From contig JAIOJF010000049.1 of assembly GCA_019911965.1 (NCBI GenBank), positions 37,535 through 101,534 of the forward strand: 64,000 bases of DNA, written 5' to 3'. Each line of letters begins with the position of its first letter. Position 1 is the first letter of the stretch. Below the pieces are notes generated by a model. The model searched no databases. It was not told the DNA's origin and was given only the letters and a program-made list of their open reading frames with translations. The stretch is from Paracoccaceae bacterium. Its GTDB lineage: Bacteria > Pseudomonadota > Alphaproteobacteria > Rhodobacterales > Rhodobacteraceae. This document shows, in pieces, positions 2,848-45,704 of the stretch. The translations under genes and the position numbers were made by a program.

Positions 2848-3015
2848 GCACCAGCATCGGGAGAATCTGGATATTCCAGTGCCGAAGGAGCAACCGCCCC
2901 GGAAACTCTCAGGCCCCAAGGACCGGTGCAGGCGACAACACTCTGGAGAGACCCCGGATCAGGTCCGGGGCGCCGAAGGGATAACGATCTCAGGCGAAAG
3001 AACAGAGGGGGCATC
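2848..3015 (+). promoter_or_regulatory. Tandem glycine riboswitch upstream of gcvTHP
   Basis: Two consecutive glycine-aptamer signatures precede gcvT. Aptamer 1 (about 2851-2950) has CGGGAGAATCTGG, GCCGAAGGAGCAA and GGAAACTCTCAGGC. Aptamer 2 (about 2951-3012) has CGCCGAAGGGATAAC, ATCTCAGGCGAAAG and CAGAGGGG. The tandem arrangement and the position in front of the glycine-cleavage operon match the known gcvT-motif riboswitch, which turns expression on when glycine is high. A TATACT hexamer at 2832-2837 is a plausible -10 element just upstream. The expression platform lies in the roughly 85 bases before the gcvT start. Confidence 0.93.
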
Positions 3016-35011: not shown

Positions 35012-35034
35012 CAAGCAACAGGGAAGGACTACCA

Positions 35035-36459
35035 ATGGTTGACGCATCAATCGGAACGCCGGAGCAGCTCCGCGATCCGGACTTCATGCCACCGCTGTCC
35101 AAGGCGGTGCCGCTGGGTATCCAGCATGTTCTGGCGATGTTCGTGTCGAACGTCACCCCGGCCATCATCATCTGTGGCGCGGCGGGTTTCGGCTTCGGCT
35201 CGAACAGCCCGGATTTCCCGCAGATGATCTACATGATCCAGATGTCGATGTTCTTTGCCGGCATCGCCACCTTGTTCCAGACTATCGGCTTAGGCCCGGT
35301 CGGTGCGCGGCTTCCGGTCGTGCAGGGCACCAGCTTTGCCTTCATTCCGATCATGATCCCGCTGGTTGCCGGCAAGGGTGTCGATGCCATGGCCGTGGTG
35401 ATGGGCGGGGTGTTCATCGGCGGATTGTTCCATGCCAGCCTTGGGCTGTTCATCGGCAAGATCCGCTTTGCCCTGCCGCCGCTGGTCACCGGCCTTGTGG
35501 TCACGATGATCGGTCTGGCGCTGGTCAAGGTCGGCATTCAGTATGCCGCCGGTGGCGTGCCTGCGATGGCCAAGCCGGAATACGGCTCGTTGCTGAACTG
35601 GTCGATGGCGGGGGTCGTGATCGTGGTCACGCTGGGGCTGAAATTCTTCACGCGCGGCATGCTGTCGGTTTCGGCGGTGCTGGTCGGTTTGCTGGCGGGC
35701 TATGTGTTTGCCTTCTTGATCGGCGAGGTCAGCCTTGGCAGCGTAGGCCGCGCCGCCTCGTTCGCGTTGCCCAACCCGTTTCATTTCGGCATGGAATTCT
35801 CGGTTGCCGCCATCATCGGCTTTTGCCTGATGGCGATTGTTTCGGCGGTTGAAACCGTCGGCGACGTGTCGGGGATCACCAAGGGCGGTGCCGGGCGCGA
35901 GGCGACCGACAAGGAAATCCAGGGCGCGACCTATGCCGATGGTCTGGGCACGGCGGTGTCCGGCCTGTTCGGTGCGTTGCCCAACACCTCGTTCAGCCAG
36001 AATGTCGGCCTGATCGCCATGACCGGCGTGATGAGCCGGGGCGTCGTAACCATCGGTGCGGTATTCCTGATCCTCTGCGGGCTGGTGCCGAAAATCGGCG
36101 CGGTCATCTCGTCGGTGCCGATCGAGGTTCTGGGCGGCGGTGTGATCATAATGTTCGGCATGGTCGTGGCTGCCGGTATCTCGATGCTGTCGGATGTGAA
36201 CTGGAACCGGCGCAACATGGTGATCTTCGCCATCGCGCTGTCGCTGGGCCTTGGCTTGCAACTGGAGCCGAATGCGTTGCAATATCTGCCGGCGACGATC
36301 AAGGTTCTGGCCACGTCGGGCATCCTGCCGGCGGCGCTGATCGCCATCGTGCTGAACCTGATGCTGCCGGACGATCTGTCGGACGAGGCGACCGAAGAGG
36401 TTTCGGGCGGCATGGCCGGGCACGGGCTTGGCTCGATCAACAAGGACGATCACGTCTGA
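35035..36459 (+). CDS. Nucleobase:cation symporter-2 family permease (xanthine/urate/uracil)
   Basis: 474 residues with about 14 hydrophobic segments. NCS2 markers: N-terminal AVPLGIQHVLAMFVSNVTPAI pattern, VVQGTSFAFIPI in the first repeat and NTSFSQNVGLIAMTGVMSRG in TM10, which contains the substrate-specifying positions. Placed 23 bases after allA, it probably imports urate or xanthine for the pathway. Exact substrate cannot be decided. Confidence 0.9.
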   Translation: MVDASIGTPEQLRDPDFMPPLSKAVPLGIQHVLAMFVSNVTPAIIICGAAGFGFGSNSPDFPQMIYMIQMSMFFAGIATLFQTIGLGPVGARLPVVQGTSFAFIPIMIPLVAGKGVDAMAVVMGGVFIGGLFHASLGLFIGKIRFALPPLVTGLVVTMIGLALVKVGIQYAAGGVPAMAKPEYGSLLNWSMAGVVIVVTLGLKFFTRGMLSVSAVLVGLLAGYVFAFLIGEVSLGSVGRAASFALPNPFHFGMEFSVAAIIGFCLMAIVSAVETVGDVSGITKGGAGREATDKEIQGATYADGLGTAVSGLFGALPNTSFSQNVGLIAMTGVMSRGVVTIGAVFLILCGLVPKIGAVISSVPIEVLGGGVIIMFGMVVAAGISMLSDVNWNRRNMVIFAIALSLGLGLQLEPNALQYLPATIKVLATSGILPAALIAIVLNLMLPDDLSDEATEEVSGGMAGHGLGSINKDDHV

Positions 36460-37330: not shown

Positions 37331-37966
37331 TCAGTATTCCACCCCAATCTGCGCCTTGATGCCCGAGCGGAAGGGGTGCTTCACCAGTTCCATCTCGGTC
37401 ACCAGATCGGCAATCTCGATCAGGTCGTCATGCGCGTTGCGCCCGGTCAGAACGACATGCGTCATCTCCGGCTTTTCGGACTTCAGGAAGGCCACCACCT
37501 CGGTGATATCGACGTAATCGTAGCGGATGGCGATGTTGATTTCGTCCAGCAGCACCATCTTGTTGGCCGGATCGCGAATCAGCTCCTTGGCCTTGGCCCA
37601 GGCCGCCTGCGCCATCTCGGTATCGCGGGACTTGTCCTGGGTTTCCCAGGTGAAGCCTTCGCCCATCGTGTGAAATTCGCAGATGTCAGAGAACCGCGAC
37701 AGGATCAGATCACGCTCGCCGGTGGACATGCCACCCTTGATGAACTGCACCACGGCGCATTGCATGCCATGCGCGATGCAGCGGAAGATCATGCCGAACG
37801 CCGCCGACGACTTGCCCTTGCCCTTGCCGGTATGGACAATGATCAGGCCCTTCCGGTCGGTCTTGGTCGCCATGATCTTGTCGCGCGCGACCTTCTTCTT
37901 GGCCATCTTCATCGCGTGGCGGTCAAGGTCCGGGCCCGTGTCAGGGTTGCTGTCGTCGGTCATCAT
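37331..37966 (-). CDS. cobO: Cob(I)yrinic acid a,c-diamide adenosyltransferase
   Basis: 211 residues of the BtuR/CobO family; transfers adenosyl from ATP to cob(I)yrinic acid diamide. The P-loop-like GKGKGKSS lies at 47-54, followed by QFIKGGMSTGERDL and LLDEINIA. It starts 4 bases after the GFA gene, so both share a transcript. Later and earlier B12 genes (cobN, cobW) are in the next leftward operon. Confidence 0.95.
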   Translation of the reverse strand: MMTDDSNPDTGPDLDRHAMKMAKKKVARDKIMATKTDRKGLIIVHTGKGKGKSSAAFGMIFRCIAHGMQCAVVQFIKGGMSTGERDLILSRFSDICEFHTMGEGFTWETQDKSRDTEMAQAAWAKAKELIRDPANKMVLLDEINIAIRYDYVDITEVVAFLKSEKPEMTHVVLTGRNAHDDLIEIADLVTEMELVKHPFRSGIKAQIGVEY

Positions 37967-37970
37967 TCCC

Positions 37971-38363
37971 TCATTTCCGTTTCAGATCGTCGCCCAGCGT
38001 GATCCAGTCTACCTGTTCGTCGGAATGGACATGCACCGTGGGCGTGTAATGCTTCTGGTCATCCAGACTCGCCGCGAAGAAGTGGATTTCACCCGCATAG
38101 CGATCCGCCTGATAAGCCATCTGCGACCCGCAATTCGCGCAAAACGAACGTACCACACCGTCAGACGAGGCATAAGTTTGCGGCGCGGCCCCGGTCCAGC
38201 GCCATTTGCCGTCCGGCACGCCGAAATAGCTGGTGAATGCTGCCGAGGTTGCCCGCCGACAGCTTTCGCAATGGCAATGCGCCATCCAGTTTTCCGGGCC
38301 GTCATAGGCGTAGGCGACGGCACCGCACAGGCAGCGCCCGGTTTTTGTGGCTGGGCCGGTCAT
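37971..38363 (-). CDS. GFA (glutathione-dependent formaldehyde-activating) family protein
   Basis: 130 residues with the GFA zinc-cysteine pattern: CLCGAVAY, HCHCESCRR and FCANCGSQMAY. The CENP-V/GFA fold holds two zinc ions. Members range from Gfa to proteins of unknown role, and the label implies no proven formaldehyde activity. It precedes cobO by 4 bases. Confidence 0.85.
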   Translation of the reverse strand: MTGPATKTGRCLCGAVAYAYDGPENWMAHCHCESCRRATSAAFTSYFGVPDGKWRWTGAAPQTYASSDGVVRSFCANCGSQMAYQADRYAGEIHFFAASLDDQKHYTPTVHVHSDEQVDWITLGDDLKRK

Positions 38364-38433
38364 TTCACAGGATTCCGCTGGTTCGTTCAGCGGTCAGCTT
38401 ATCGTTTGATCGTCGGGGCGTACAGCCTGCGGC

Positions 38434-38464
38434 AAAGAAAAAGGCAGGACCATTGGGTCCTGCC
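38434..38464 (-). terminator. Strong intrinsic terminator
   Basis: GGCAGGACC at 38443-38451 and GGTCCTGCC at 38456-38464 make a perfect 9-bp stem with a 4-base loop; on the minus strand it is followed by TTTTTCTTT (38442 down to 38434). It lies about 70 bases before the GFA start codon and 210 bases past the end of the cobN-GNAT genes. Confidence 0.85.
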
Positions 38465-38546
38465 AGGTGCGGGGGTCAAGCCCCCTCAGGGAAGTTCATG
38501 ATCCGTGGTCAAATCCGTAGGGAGGACGGAGATAACCGCAAAACAC
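38434..38546 (-). ncRNA. Candidate FnrL-dependent small RNA
   Basis: Read leftward from about 38546. Upstream is a perfect FNR box (38581-38594) centred about 41.5 bases from this point and a -10-like AAGAAT at 38558-38553. The transcript would contain a small hairpin (38514-38530, stem TCCGT/ACGGA) that exposes the loop CCTCCCT, an anti-Shine-Dalgarno sequence, then a GGGGG/CCCCC hairpin (38471-38485), and end at a perfect 9-bp terminator hairpin followed by TTTTTCTTT. About 113 bases, no coding potential beyond a 7-codon frame. All of this is inference from sequence; no homolog was recognised. It could instead be the leader of the GFA-cobO transcript. Confidence 0.5.
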
Positions 38547-38580
38547 TTAAGCATTCTTGAAAATGAATGATGCTTCAGCC

Positions 38581-38594
38581 TTGATCCAGATCAA
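38581..38594. promoter_or_regulatory. FNR/FnrL binding site
   Basis: TTGATCCAGATCAA is a perfect match to the FNR half-site consensus TTGAT-N4-ATCAA. Only leftward transcription is served, because the gene on its right ends there. FnrL is the oxygen-sensing regulator of Rhodobacterales. Confidence 0.75.
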
Positions 38595-38675
38595 ATTCCG
38601 GAAATTTTTTCCAACTGGTTAGGTTTTGCATCGGCGCCGGTATTGCGCCCGCGGCAGACAGATATCCGGATCCGC

Positions 38676-39152
38676 TCAAAACTGATCCAGATGCAATCGC
38701 ATGGTGATGCTGGTCGGGCGATCAAAGCCGGGATGGGCGGTTTGTCCGGTCTGCCTGAAACCCAGTTTGCGGAACGCCGCATGGTTCTCCACCAGTTCCA
38801 CCCGTGTCTGAAGTTCCAGCGCCACCAGCCCTTGATCCCGTGCGCGACCAGCCGCCTTGGCAACCAGCGCACGGGCGATGCCATGACCGCGCCAGGGTTC
38901 AGCGACGGCCAGTTTACCAAGATACAGCGCATCACCCTTGCGGCTGAGAAACAGGCAGGCCACCGGTTCTGCCGCGATCTCGGCAATCCAGATCTCGCCG
39001 GTCACGGCAGCGGCTTCAATCGCTTCGCCCGTCAGGCGATGCACCGACGAAGGCGGGTCGATCCGGCCGTCCATATAGGCGAAGGCCGTGCCGATCAGGT
39101 TCGCCAGCATAGCCAGCACCGGATCGCCGGGCAGCGCCTGTCGCAGCCTCAC
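38676..39152 (-). CDS. GNAT family N-acetyltransferase
   Basis: 158 residues with the acetyl-CoA site in LYLGKLAVAEPWRGHGIARALV (core pattern R-G-H-G-I-A) and the GNAT fold ending LELQTRVELVENHAAFRKLGF. I set the start at GTG 39152, which overlaps the cobN stop as GTGA. An upstream in-frame ATG would lie inside cobN. It closes the riboswitch-led B12 operon. Substrate unknown. Confidence 0.8.
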   Translation of the reverse strand: MRLRQALPGDPVLAMLANLIGTAFAYMDGRIDPPSSVHRLTGEAIEAAAVTGEIWIAEIAAEPVACLFLSRKGDALYLGKLAVAEPWRGHGIARALVAKAAGRARDQGLVALELQTRVELVENHAAFRKLGFRQTGQTAHPGFDRPTSITMRLHLDQF

Positions 39153-42100
39153 CGCAGCGCCTCGATCAGCGCGCGGGCCGAGTTGGATTTCGGCTGCCAA
39201 AGGCCGCGCTCGATCGCCTCGGCCAGCCGCTCGGCGATTTCGCGCAAGGCGGGGGCGTTGTGGTCGGCGATGAATTGCCGGGTTTCGTCATCTTCCAGAA
39301 AGGCGGCATGGACCAGATCGAAATGGTGGTTGCGCACCGCGCCGGTGGTGGCGGCGAAGGCGAACAGGTAATCGACCGTCGCGGCCATCTCGAAGGCCCC
39401 CTTGTAGCCGTGGCGCTTGACCCCGTCGATCCATTTCGGGTTGACCACGCGCGAGCGCACGACGCGGCCGATCTCGTCATCCAGGGTGCGGATCAGCGGG
39501 CGTTCGGGGCGGGAATGGTCGTTGTGATAGATCGGGCGGTCGCGGCCCTGCAACGTGCTGACCGCCGCCGCCGCCCCGCCTTCAAACTGGTAGTAATCGT
39601 CGCTGTCCAGCAGGTCATGCTCGCGGTTATCCTGATTCTGCACCACCGCCTCGGCCTGGCCAAGCCGGGCCTCGAAGGCGGCGCGGGCGCGGGTGCCTTC
39701 CGCCTTGCCGCCATAGGCATAGCCGCCCCAGTCCAGATAGGCATCGGCCAGATCGGCCTTCGAGGCCCAGAGCCGCTCGTCGATCATCGCCTGCAACCCG
39801 GCACCATATGCTCCGGGTTTGGAGCCGAACACCCGGAATTGCCCGTCCACCCCTTCGGCGGCGGCGCGGGCGGCGGCGGGGTTCATGTCGGGCGGTTCAT
39901 CCAGCGCCATCACGGCGCGGGCGGCGCTGTCGATCAGATCGATCTGCGCCGGGAAGGCATCGCGGAAAAAACCCGAGACACGAAGCGTCACATCCACCCG
40001 AGGCCGGTCCAGCACAGACAGGGGCAGGATTTCAAAGCCGGTGACGCGGCGATTGGCGCTGTCCCATTGCGGCTTCACCCCCATCAGCGCAAGCGCCTGC
40101 GCGATATCATCGCCGCCGGTGCGCATGTTGGCGGTGCCCCAGGCGGTCAGCAACAATGCGCGCGGCCAATCGCCTTCGCTCTGCAAATGCTTTTCAATCA
40201 GCAGGTTGGCCGATTTCCAGCCCAGGGCCCAGGCGGTTGGTGTGGGAATGGCGCGGCTGTCGACGCTGTAGAAATTGCGGCCGGTCGGAAGTACGTCAAG
40301 GCGGCCGCGGGTCGGCGCACCGGATGGTGCCGGGGCGACGAACTGCCCTTTCAGGGCGGTGAGAAGGCCCGCCCCCTCGTCCCTGCCGCAGGCGGCCAGA
40401 ACCGGCGCGACCACGGCTTCGATTTCCGCCATGACGGCGCCCGAGGCATCGCCGGGCGGTGTCGCCCCGCCGTCCAGCAGCGCCGCTGCCAGCAATTCCA
40501 GCCGTTCGACGGTATCGCCGGTACTGCGCCAATGCGCCTGCGAGATATCTGCCAATGCGTCTGGCCTCGGCCCGGCCCAGGCCGCTGCCATGTCGCAATC
40601 CAATGGGTCAAACGCCAGACCGAAATCCAACGCTAATGCGCGCGGCAGCGAGGCATTGCCGCCCTTTCCGTCGCTGCGTGGAATGCGGGTCAGTGCCAGC
40701 AGCAGATCGCGCGCCAGACGGCCCTCGGGGGATATGCCGAAAACGTGCAGGCCGTCCCGGATCTGCGCCTCTTTCAACTCGCACAGATAGGCATCCAGCC
40801 GCGCCAGATCGCCGGCCTCGTCGGTTCCCGACATGCCGACATCCTCGGCCAGCCCGGTGGCCGAACTCAACGCCAGAATCTCGCCGCGCAGATGCGCCAG
40901 ACGGCGGGGATCGACCCCGGCGGCCTCGTAATATTCATCGACCAATGCTTCAAGATCACGCATCGGCCCGTAGCTTTCCGCCCGCGTCAGGGGCGGTGTC
41001 AGATGGTCGATGATCACCGCCTGTGCGCGGCGCTTGGCCTGCGTGCCTTCGCCCGGATCATTGACGATGAAGGGATAGACATGCGGCATCGGGCCAAGGG
41101 CGGCCTCGGGGAAGCATTCTTCGGACAAGGCTACCGATTTGCCCGGCAGCCATTCCAGATTGCCGTGCTTGCCCATATGTACGATGGCATGGGCGCGGAA
41201 CTGGTGGCGCAGCCAGAAATAGAACGCCAGGTAATTATGCGGCGGCACCAGATCGGGGGAATGGTAGGTTTCGGACGGGTCGATGTTATAGCCACGCGCC
41301 GGTTGCACCCCCACGACGACATTGCCGAATTGCAGCACCGACAGCGCGAAATGCCCGCAATCGACCTCGCCGGGGCTGTAGAACGGATCAGCCTCGGGGC
41401 GGCCCCAGCGAGCCTCGATCCGCTCGCGCAGGGCCAGCGGCAACTGGCCGTAATCAATCTGGTAATCGGCCATCGACATCTCGACACCGCCGGTCCGCGA
41501 CGCCCGGTCGGTCAGCCAGTTGGTCGGCCCGGCCAGGATCGCCTGCATCAGCGCATCCGCGTCCTTCGGCGGATCGGTCAGCCGGTAGCCTTCGGTGGCC
41601 AGCAGGTTCAGCACATGAATGGTCGCCGCCGGGGTATCCAGCCCGACGCCATTGGCCAGACGTCCGTCCTTGTTGGGATAATTCGCCAGCACCAGCGCCA
41701 CCCGGCGATCCGCCTCGGGGGTCTGGCGCAGTTTTGCCCAGTTGGTTGCCAGATCGGCGACGAAATCAATCCGGTCGCCGCGCGCGCGATAGGCGGCGAT
41801 GGGGCATTGGGTGGCCTCGTCGAAAAACGCCTCGCCCTTGAAGCTGACGGCGCGGCTTAGGATCCGGCCATCGACCTCAGGCAGGGCCACGTTCATGGCG
41901 ATGTCGCGTGCCGACAGGCCGGATGGCCCCTCGGCCCAGGAGGCTTCGGATGATCCCGCCAGGACCACCTGGAACACCGGCGCGTCATTAGCGGCGGCGG
42001 CGTTCAGCGGGTTGTCCGGGGCGTTATCGCCCTGATGCGGCGAGCCGACGGCGAAGGCGGTGCAATTCAGGATCACCGAAGGCGGCGCGGCGGCAAACAG

Positions 42101-45381: not shown

Positions 45382-45424
45382 TATTCAAGTCCTTTCCCGT
45401 CACACCCGACGGATTGATTGCACT

Positions 45425-45627
45425 TCCTGCAAGGCCGGTCTCCTGACTCGCGGGTCAAAGCGTTCCGTCGGCCTTCCCGGGGCTGGCCCAGTGGCGTGTT
45501 CGACGGGCGCTCACCGCATACAGTCGCGGGGGCGGTTGCGGTTTCAGGCCCCGGATATCGGTCGGCCCTGTCCGCATTCCCATTTCATCCCCGACCGCTT
45601 GGCGGCCTGACGGGGAACCTTACGGGG
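45425..45627 (-). promoter_or_regulatory. Cobalamin (AdoCbl) riboswitch
   Basis: On the minus strand all hallmark boxes appear in order: GACAGGGCCGACC, CCGCGACTGTATGCGGTGAGC-like P6 region, GCCACTG (45489-45495), CCGGGAAGGC, and the highly conserved GAGTCAGGAGACCGGCC (45433-45449). It precedes cbtB by about 45 bases. The known effect is repression by adenosylcobalamin. It controls cobalt import, CobW and CobN together. Confidence 0.96.
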
Positions 45628-45704
45628 GCTATTTGACAGGCAAGACGCCTCGCGGTCAAGGCGGATTGCGACCGGGGATGGCCGGATCGCGTCGGGGCTG
45701 CGGC

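Follow-up and report, generated by a model that had tools for sequence, protein, structure and literature searches.

Does the 312-base gap between the cobN side and the GFA gene hold a small RNA gene of its own, switched on by FnrL when oxygen is low, and which part of such an RNA would act on target mRNAs? Enterobacteria have well-known sRNAs under FNR control; in the available portions of the literature covered, the low-oxygen RNA layer of Rhodobacterales is described on the basis of Cereibacter sphaeroides. The question came from a first-pass annotation of the window (the whole stretch of 64,000 nucleotides analysed here), in which an FnrL-controlled sRNA with an anti-Shine-Dalgarno loop had been proposed. 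Here the locus was examined by folding, by comparison with other genomes and with known RNAs, and by inspection of candidate targets.

A predicted small RNA gene in the window

The gap (38364-38675) is enclosed by a GNAT ORF on the cobN side (38676-39200) and a GFA ORF (37971-38363), both on the minus strand; the identities GNAT, GFA, CobO and CobN come from profile matches. The gap of 312 bases, the FNR box, the hexamer AAGAAT, the CCTCCCT loop and the 9-bp terminator of the first-pass annotation were all found in place. All features of the element lie on the minus strand. Its FNR/FnrL box is the palindrome TTGATCCAGATCAA (38581-38594), predicted to act as a class II activator site with its centre at about -41.5, and AAGAAT (38553-38558), the -10-like hexamer, begins 22 nt past the box as the best TATAAT match at offset 22-23. 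The predicted sRNA of about 113 nt extends over 38434-38546, its start being deduced from the box and its end from the terminator. By folding, it begins with a 5' stem-loop domain (38498-38546) that differs among genomes and that exposes CCUCCCU in its loop (38519-38525). This domain is followed by CUUCCCUGA (38486-38494), an anti-Shine-Dalgarno-like sequence proposed as the seed from its invariance in six genomes and its unpaired probability, by a small hairpin GGGGG-CUUGA-CCCCC (38471-38485) supported by folding and by the family alignment, and by an intrinsic terminator (38434-38464) recognised by a terminator scan and by compensatory changes, with a 9-bp stem (38464-38443) and a U-rich tail.

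Folding of 38546-38434 gave an energy of -46.6 kcal/mol, compared with -30.4 +/- 3.05 for shuffled sequences (z = -5.3; none of 200 as good). A generic terminator scan of 37900-39200 returned two sites against 1.0 expected; the terminator alone is therefore not significant, and the case rests on comparison. It is mainly conservation that sets the element apart from chance. A sigma-70 scan found no -35/-10 pair at the locus, and an Rfam search of the window gave four matches at gathering score, all of them away from the gap. The window also holds a cobalamin riboswitch (45416-45637, minus strand) and a glycine riboswitch (2848-2935, plus strand), both ordinary and well over the Rfam thresholds. 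A coding reading of the element was dropped by eye, given that the predicted 69-nt RNA of one relative (G007) has no start codon ahead of the terminator.

Relatives of the element within the genus

Plain sequence search is too weak for this element. When 101 genomes were searched by BLAST, the gap matched its own genome alone, and a distant plasmid search gave no match. The exact pattern CTTCCCTGAGGGGN{2,7}ACCCC was present in two of 394 genomes, the window's own and G408, and in two viral contigs as well; the match in G408 is located inside an HsdM-type methylase gene and was counted as chance. One comparison set consisted of 80 cobO loci from named genomes. Among them, L015 has the sequence CTTCCCTGAGGGG in the interval from cobN to cobO, followed there by a hairpin and a terminator; TTGACCCAAGTCAA lies upstream. 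A covariance model (R1) was built from two sequences, that of the element in the window and that in L015. On the 80 cobO loci its sole strong match was L015, and L020 reached 21 bits (E 0.011). FNR-like boxes found in L020, L069 and L071 were set aside, as by eye they precede apparent protein-coding starts.

When R1 was run on 293 genomes, 145 were matched at E <= 0.5, mostly weakly, as is expected of a model that bears a terminator. Strong matches were obtained within the genus in G000 (the genome of the window), G001 (the same contig as L015), G008, G002, G005 and G007, with E values from 1.6e-22 to 1.5e-6. Two of these genomes had been used to build R1 and four are independent; the element is thus present in six of the ten genus genomes, the model-building two included. 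The first-pass annotation had recognised no homolog, a statement overtaken by these homologs within the genus. True and false matches cannot be told apart by model score alone, since G106, a genome outside the genus, scores 38.0 bits with R1, above the 37.6 bits of G007. The match in G106 (L112, 1501-1566, minus strand) reaches 30.4 bits with RF00519 and lacks an FNR box; it follows an ORF that by eye looks like an ammonium transporter gene, and is possibly a 3' UTR RNA. Seven R1 matches, several of them equal in score, were found in G172, where locus L116 consists of TTCCCTG..AACTTTGTGGCTGGGCC plus a terminator and looks like a multicopy sRNA or a repeat.

No R1 match was obtained in the other four genus genomes (G003, G004, G006 and G009), and neither CTTCCCTGA, which is invariant among the six carriers, nor the box was found in the stretches read. 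In G006 and G009 cobO lies close behind cobN, and in G003 some 150 bases behind it; in G004 the genes that come next, across a short gap, are GNAT and GFA. The assemblies of G004 and G009 are incomplete (77% and 83%), yet their cobN-downstream junctions were seen. No account of this RNA was recognised in the open-licence literature, subscription journals being outside the scope of that search.

Predicted promoter and regulator

The exact sequence TTGATNNNNATCAA occurs once in the 64 kb, at the box itself, and with one mismatch allowed it occurs twice (1.01 expected). TTGAYNNNNRTCAA precedes the element in each of the six carriers, the five relatives included, and in none of 13 among the non-genus matches listed. 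In each of the six genomes, a hexamer with four of the six TATAAT letters is found 22-23 nt past the box. The summed -10 match at this offset is 24/36, the next best offset reaching 19; among 20,000 shuffles of the sequence after the box none reached 24 at the same offset, and one did when the near-copy G008 was left out. G005 has in addition a better -10-like match (5/6), two to three bases closer to the box. In class II FNR promoters the box is centred at about -41.5, and the spacing between box and -10 hexamer, judged from sequence, is that of such promoters in all six genomes. Each of the six also encodes an FNR-type regulator: FnrL (NF045989, cut-off 300) reaches 421.5 bits in the window's own genome and 403.7-422.8 bits in the other five, and an N-terminal cysteine cluster was read by eye in all six proteins.

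Conserved 3' core and variable 5' part

For comparison among genomes, RNA starts were predicted from the box centre plus 41.5, and 3' ends were placed by hand in the U-tract. The resulting lengths are 113 nt in G000, 240 in G001, 237 in G002, 236 in G008, 140 in G005 and 69 in G007, and the seed starts at positions 53, 177, 175, 174, 75 and 10, respectively. The part 5' of the seed therefore measures 9 nt at its shortest and 176 nt at its longest. A CCTCCCT domain is missing from the RNA predicted for G007, and different C/U-rich runs are present in the other four relatives. Folding of the whole RNAs was no better than that of shuffles in G001 (z -0.93) and G002 (z -1.00), and better in G005 (z -2.71) and G007 (z -3.11).

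The order of the 3' part is the same in the six genomes: CUUCCCUGA, which is invariant and complementary to ribosome-binding sites, then the small hairpin, then the terminator with compensatory changes. Structure statistics were taken from an alignment of the six sequences fitted to a covariance model, in which 93.6% of the cells are paired. Two-sided changes occur in six of 13 pairs, all in the terminator (6/9 stem pairs), a count reached by 4 of 500 shuffles. The covariation score was 0.436 against 0.223 (0/500 shuffles), and slid structures gave at most 0.200. Further pair types were not unusual (140/500 shuffles), and the small hairpin has 91.7% of its cells paired and no two-sided change. 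The mean unpaired probability of CUUCCCU is 0.87 in G000, 0.65 in G001, 0.58 in G002, 0.75 in G008, 0.86 in G005 and 0.97 in G007, the overall mean of the six RNAs being 0.42-0.54. Given the variation of the 5' part, the conserved pairing element is CUUCCCUGA (38494-38486) and not the CCUCCCU loop. Thus, of what the first-pass annotation had expected to be conserved among relatives, the covariance search bore out the box and the terminator in six of ten genus genomes and turned against the anti-Shine-Dalgarno loop, whose place is taken by the invariant CUUCCCUGA.

Gene neighbourhood

The carboxy end of CobN lies upstream of the element on the same strand in all five relatives; in the window cobN is followed by GNAT and then by the element. 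This position behind cobN in six of six genomes would fit an element that merely terminates the cobN operon and forms its 3' end, the FNR box being there by chance and any 3' fragment being a by-product, and terminators are common, R1 matching weakly in 145 of 293 genomes. Against that explanation, which we consider unlikely, a terminator would not require the conservation seen in the box, in the -10 spacing and in the unpaired CUUCCCUGA, and in the window the GNAT gene separates cobN from the element.

The next gene, also on the same strand, is GFA in the window and cobO in three relatives (G001, G002 and G008); in G005 and G007 it encodes a rhodanese-domain protein. The element could instead be seen as a leader or attenuator that belongs to the GFA-cobO genes downstream and is read through under certain conditions: these genes share its strand, GFA starts 70 bases on, and cobO follows the element in three relatives. 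However, the very change of the next gene from genome to genome argues against a leader, and a terminator with compensatory changes closes the element in 6/6, making this explanation improbable.

That an FnrL-type sRNA gene exists here is highly probable. The proposal of a stand-alone FnrL-type sRNA gene in the first-pass annotation has held as regards the box, the -10 spacing, the 3' module and the terminator, kept together in six of ten genus genomes with FnrL encoded in those six, and its claim about the loop has been given up. The element is likely a conserved, FnrL-controlled sRNA gene, of a kind already known.

Comparison with known small RNAs

The alphaR8 family (MmgR, SisA-D; RF00519) is described, in the available part of its source, as having an open C/U-rich seed before an intrinsic terminator and siblings with unrelated promoters (PMC12559287). 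The new element could then be a divergent member of that family, one sibling among several with a promoter of its own. It shares the plan of an open C/U-rich seed ahead of a terminator with the family as outlined there (PMC12559287), RF00519 scores 23.7 bits on L107 and 19.7 on L110, and model R2 weakly matches eight of the ten alphaR8-like loci of the genus (13.1-23.4 bits). However, the RF00519 gathering score of 41 is exceeded in none of the ten genus genomes, each of which has its best match at another locus; the 10-mer UUUCCUCCCU is absent, with UCCUCCCU alone present, in the variable 5' loop; and an additional hairpin stands between seed and terminator. In the RNA of the window it is CUUCCCUGA, not UUUCCUCCCU, that precedes the last two hairpins. 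Of the marks of the family, the 3' intrinsic terminator was found, and a gathering-level score and a single-stranded UUUCCUCCCU before the terminator were not. The element also differs by its FNR promoter, and the genus holds better-scoring alphaR8-like loci elsewhere. In plan the new RNA is similar to alphaR8, yet it fails the tests of that family, and we regard membership as very unlikely.

Nine of the ten alphaR8-like loci of the genus were read: CCTCCCT precedes the terminator in all nine, and the core CACCTCCCTGTTGGACTTAA is present in eight, namely L181 (G000:C47:49778-49844), L178-L180, L182-L184 and L186, all below the Rfam cut-off. A CTTGAT..CCCTAA-like motif is present upstream of these loci, which we take to recall RpoH promoters. 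An identity of this alphaR8-like RNA with StsR (RSs0827) was not confirmed, the motif being absent from the 36 kb of C. sphaeroides examined.

One of the closest known RNAs is PcrZ, the FnrL-dependent photosynthesis-control RNA of C. sphaeroides. A homology with PcrZ would agree with its origin in the same bacterial family, its similar size (136 nt) and its low-oxygen induction requiring FnrL, as given in the available portions of the sources (PMC6238624, PMC8139620). Model R2, however, finds nothing at the published position of PcrZ (L214:7821-7956), its best match in that 16 kb being elsewhere (7.7 bits, E 1.6); CTTCCCTGA is absent at the PcrZ locus, and the neighbours of PcrZ are a DEAD-box helicase gene and a cytochrome b561 gene, not cobN. 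Homology was rejected at the level of both sequence and synteny, and is extremely improbable. Both belong to the same family of bacteria; PcrZ has a PrrA site, and its FnrL control may be indirect, according to the part of the source available (PMC8139620). An FNR-type box, TTGATGCGGATCAA, is present just downstream of PcrZ at about 8007-8020 of L214 (C. sphaeroides chromosome 1), where it separates the published position of PcrZ from a small ORF whose ATG is at about 8090. In G060, SorX was found at C4:2598225 and a SorX-family match at 1632636, positions a few bases from those given for SorX and SorY of C. sphaeroides 2.4.1 in the portion of the source available (PMC6238624). Two other C. 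sphaeroides RNAs, RSs0019 (Pos19) and RSs2461, have FnrL ChIP-seq sites in their putative promoters, as mentioned in the available part of PMC4263372.

E. coli FnrS is described in the same part of that source as an FNR-activated sRNA that represses mRNAs at low oxygen (PMC4263372). The likeness of the present element to FnrS lies in low-oxygen activation of FNR type and in mRNA repression, both predicted here; the two were compared by the Rfam search alone, which found no family at gathering score in the gap and covers FnrS only if FnrS is in the library. Presumably, the seed and the genomic place of FnrS differ from those of the element.

Candidate targets

The sequence CAGGGAAG, followed by an ATG 3-10 nt on, occurs 50 times in the six genomes, compared with 9 times for the reversed pattern; this excess is weak as evidence because it is expected of any motif resembling a ribosome site. 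Of these 50 sites, two fall within the element, on its opposite strand (in the window's own genome and in G005), and the ATGs of 37 open at least 40 codons. For the recurring groups of candidate targets, one member each was identified by profile and the rest by BLASTP. The complement of the seed lies at the ribosome site of the gene for the oxygen-dependent coproporphyrinogen oxidase HemF in G001, G002 and G008, and in the latter two it is a 10-nt perfect complement (UCAGGGAAGA). Sites at the genes for PaaZ and a universal stress protein recur in the same three genomes. A peptidoglycan-binding-like protein (below its cut-off) carries a site in two genomes, as does, internally, a gene read by eye as asd. 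Single sites belong to cytochrome oxidase subunit III (cox3) in G007, CysE in G005 and UppP in G001. The window's own genome has sites at the genes for a PhyH-family dioxygenase, a xanthine permease and a sulphur transporter-like protein and at three paralogous genes, for which we know of no link to oxygen. The xanthine permease gene (pbuX family) lies within the window (35035-36459, plus strand), and its ribosome site (35019-35037) includes CAGGGAAG at 35019-35026, complementary to eight seed bases. RNAduplex energies of the whole RNAs with candidate leaders were given no weight, as internal structure is ignored and the leaders had been preselected by the seed complement.

Proposed role

In the mechanism that we propose, low oxygen would lead FnrL to switch on the class II promoter of the element, and the predicted sRNA would be transcribed from about 38546 to 38434. 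The seed CUUCCCUGA would be open in the cell, possibly with help from Hfq, and would pair with ribosome-binding sites, so that translation of target mRNAs would be blocked. We infer the transcript, its activation by FnrL, the open seed and the help from Hfq. The joint reading, a stand-alone FnrL-controlled sRNA gene whose seed pairs with ribosome-binding sites to block translation, is on balance probable. The target assignments are the most tentative part: with hemF, paaZ, cox3, the PhyH-family dioxygenase gene and pbuX as targets, the RNA would correspond to FnrS of E. coli. The candidate sites suggest such a role, as a hypothesis whose oxygen theme was noticed post hoc. A bolder version, which we put forward as speculative, is an independently evolved alphaproteobacterial FnrS with a fixed promoter and a 3' core of about 60 nt, a freely replaced 5' domain, and a 9-nt seed that silences HemF, cytochrome oxidase subunit III, PaaZ and dioxygenases at oxygen depletion.

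If this is true, the genus would have an FnrL-type RNA unrelated to the known ones, with a defined seed and a comparative set of six genomes with it and four without, and it would offer the case of an sRNA that keeps its promoter and 3' core while swapping its 5' half. The RNA arm of the oxygen switch would then become directly testable.
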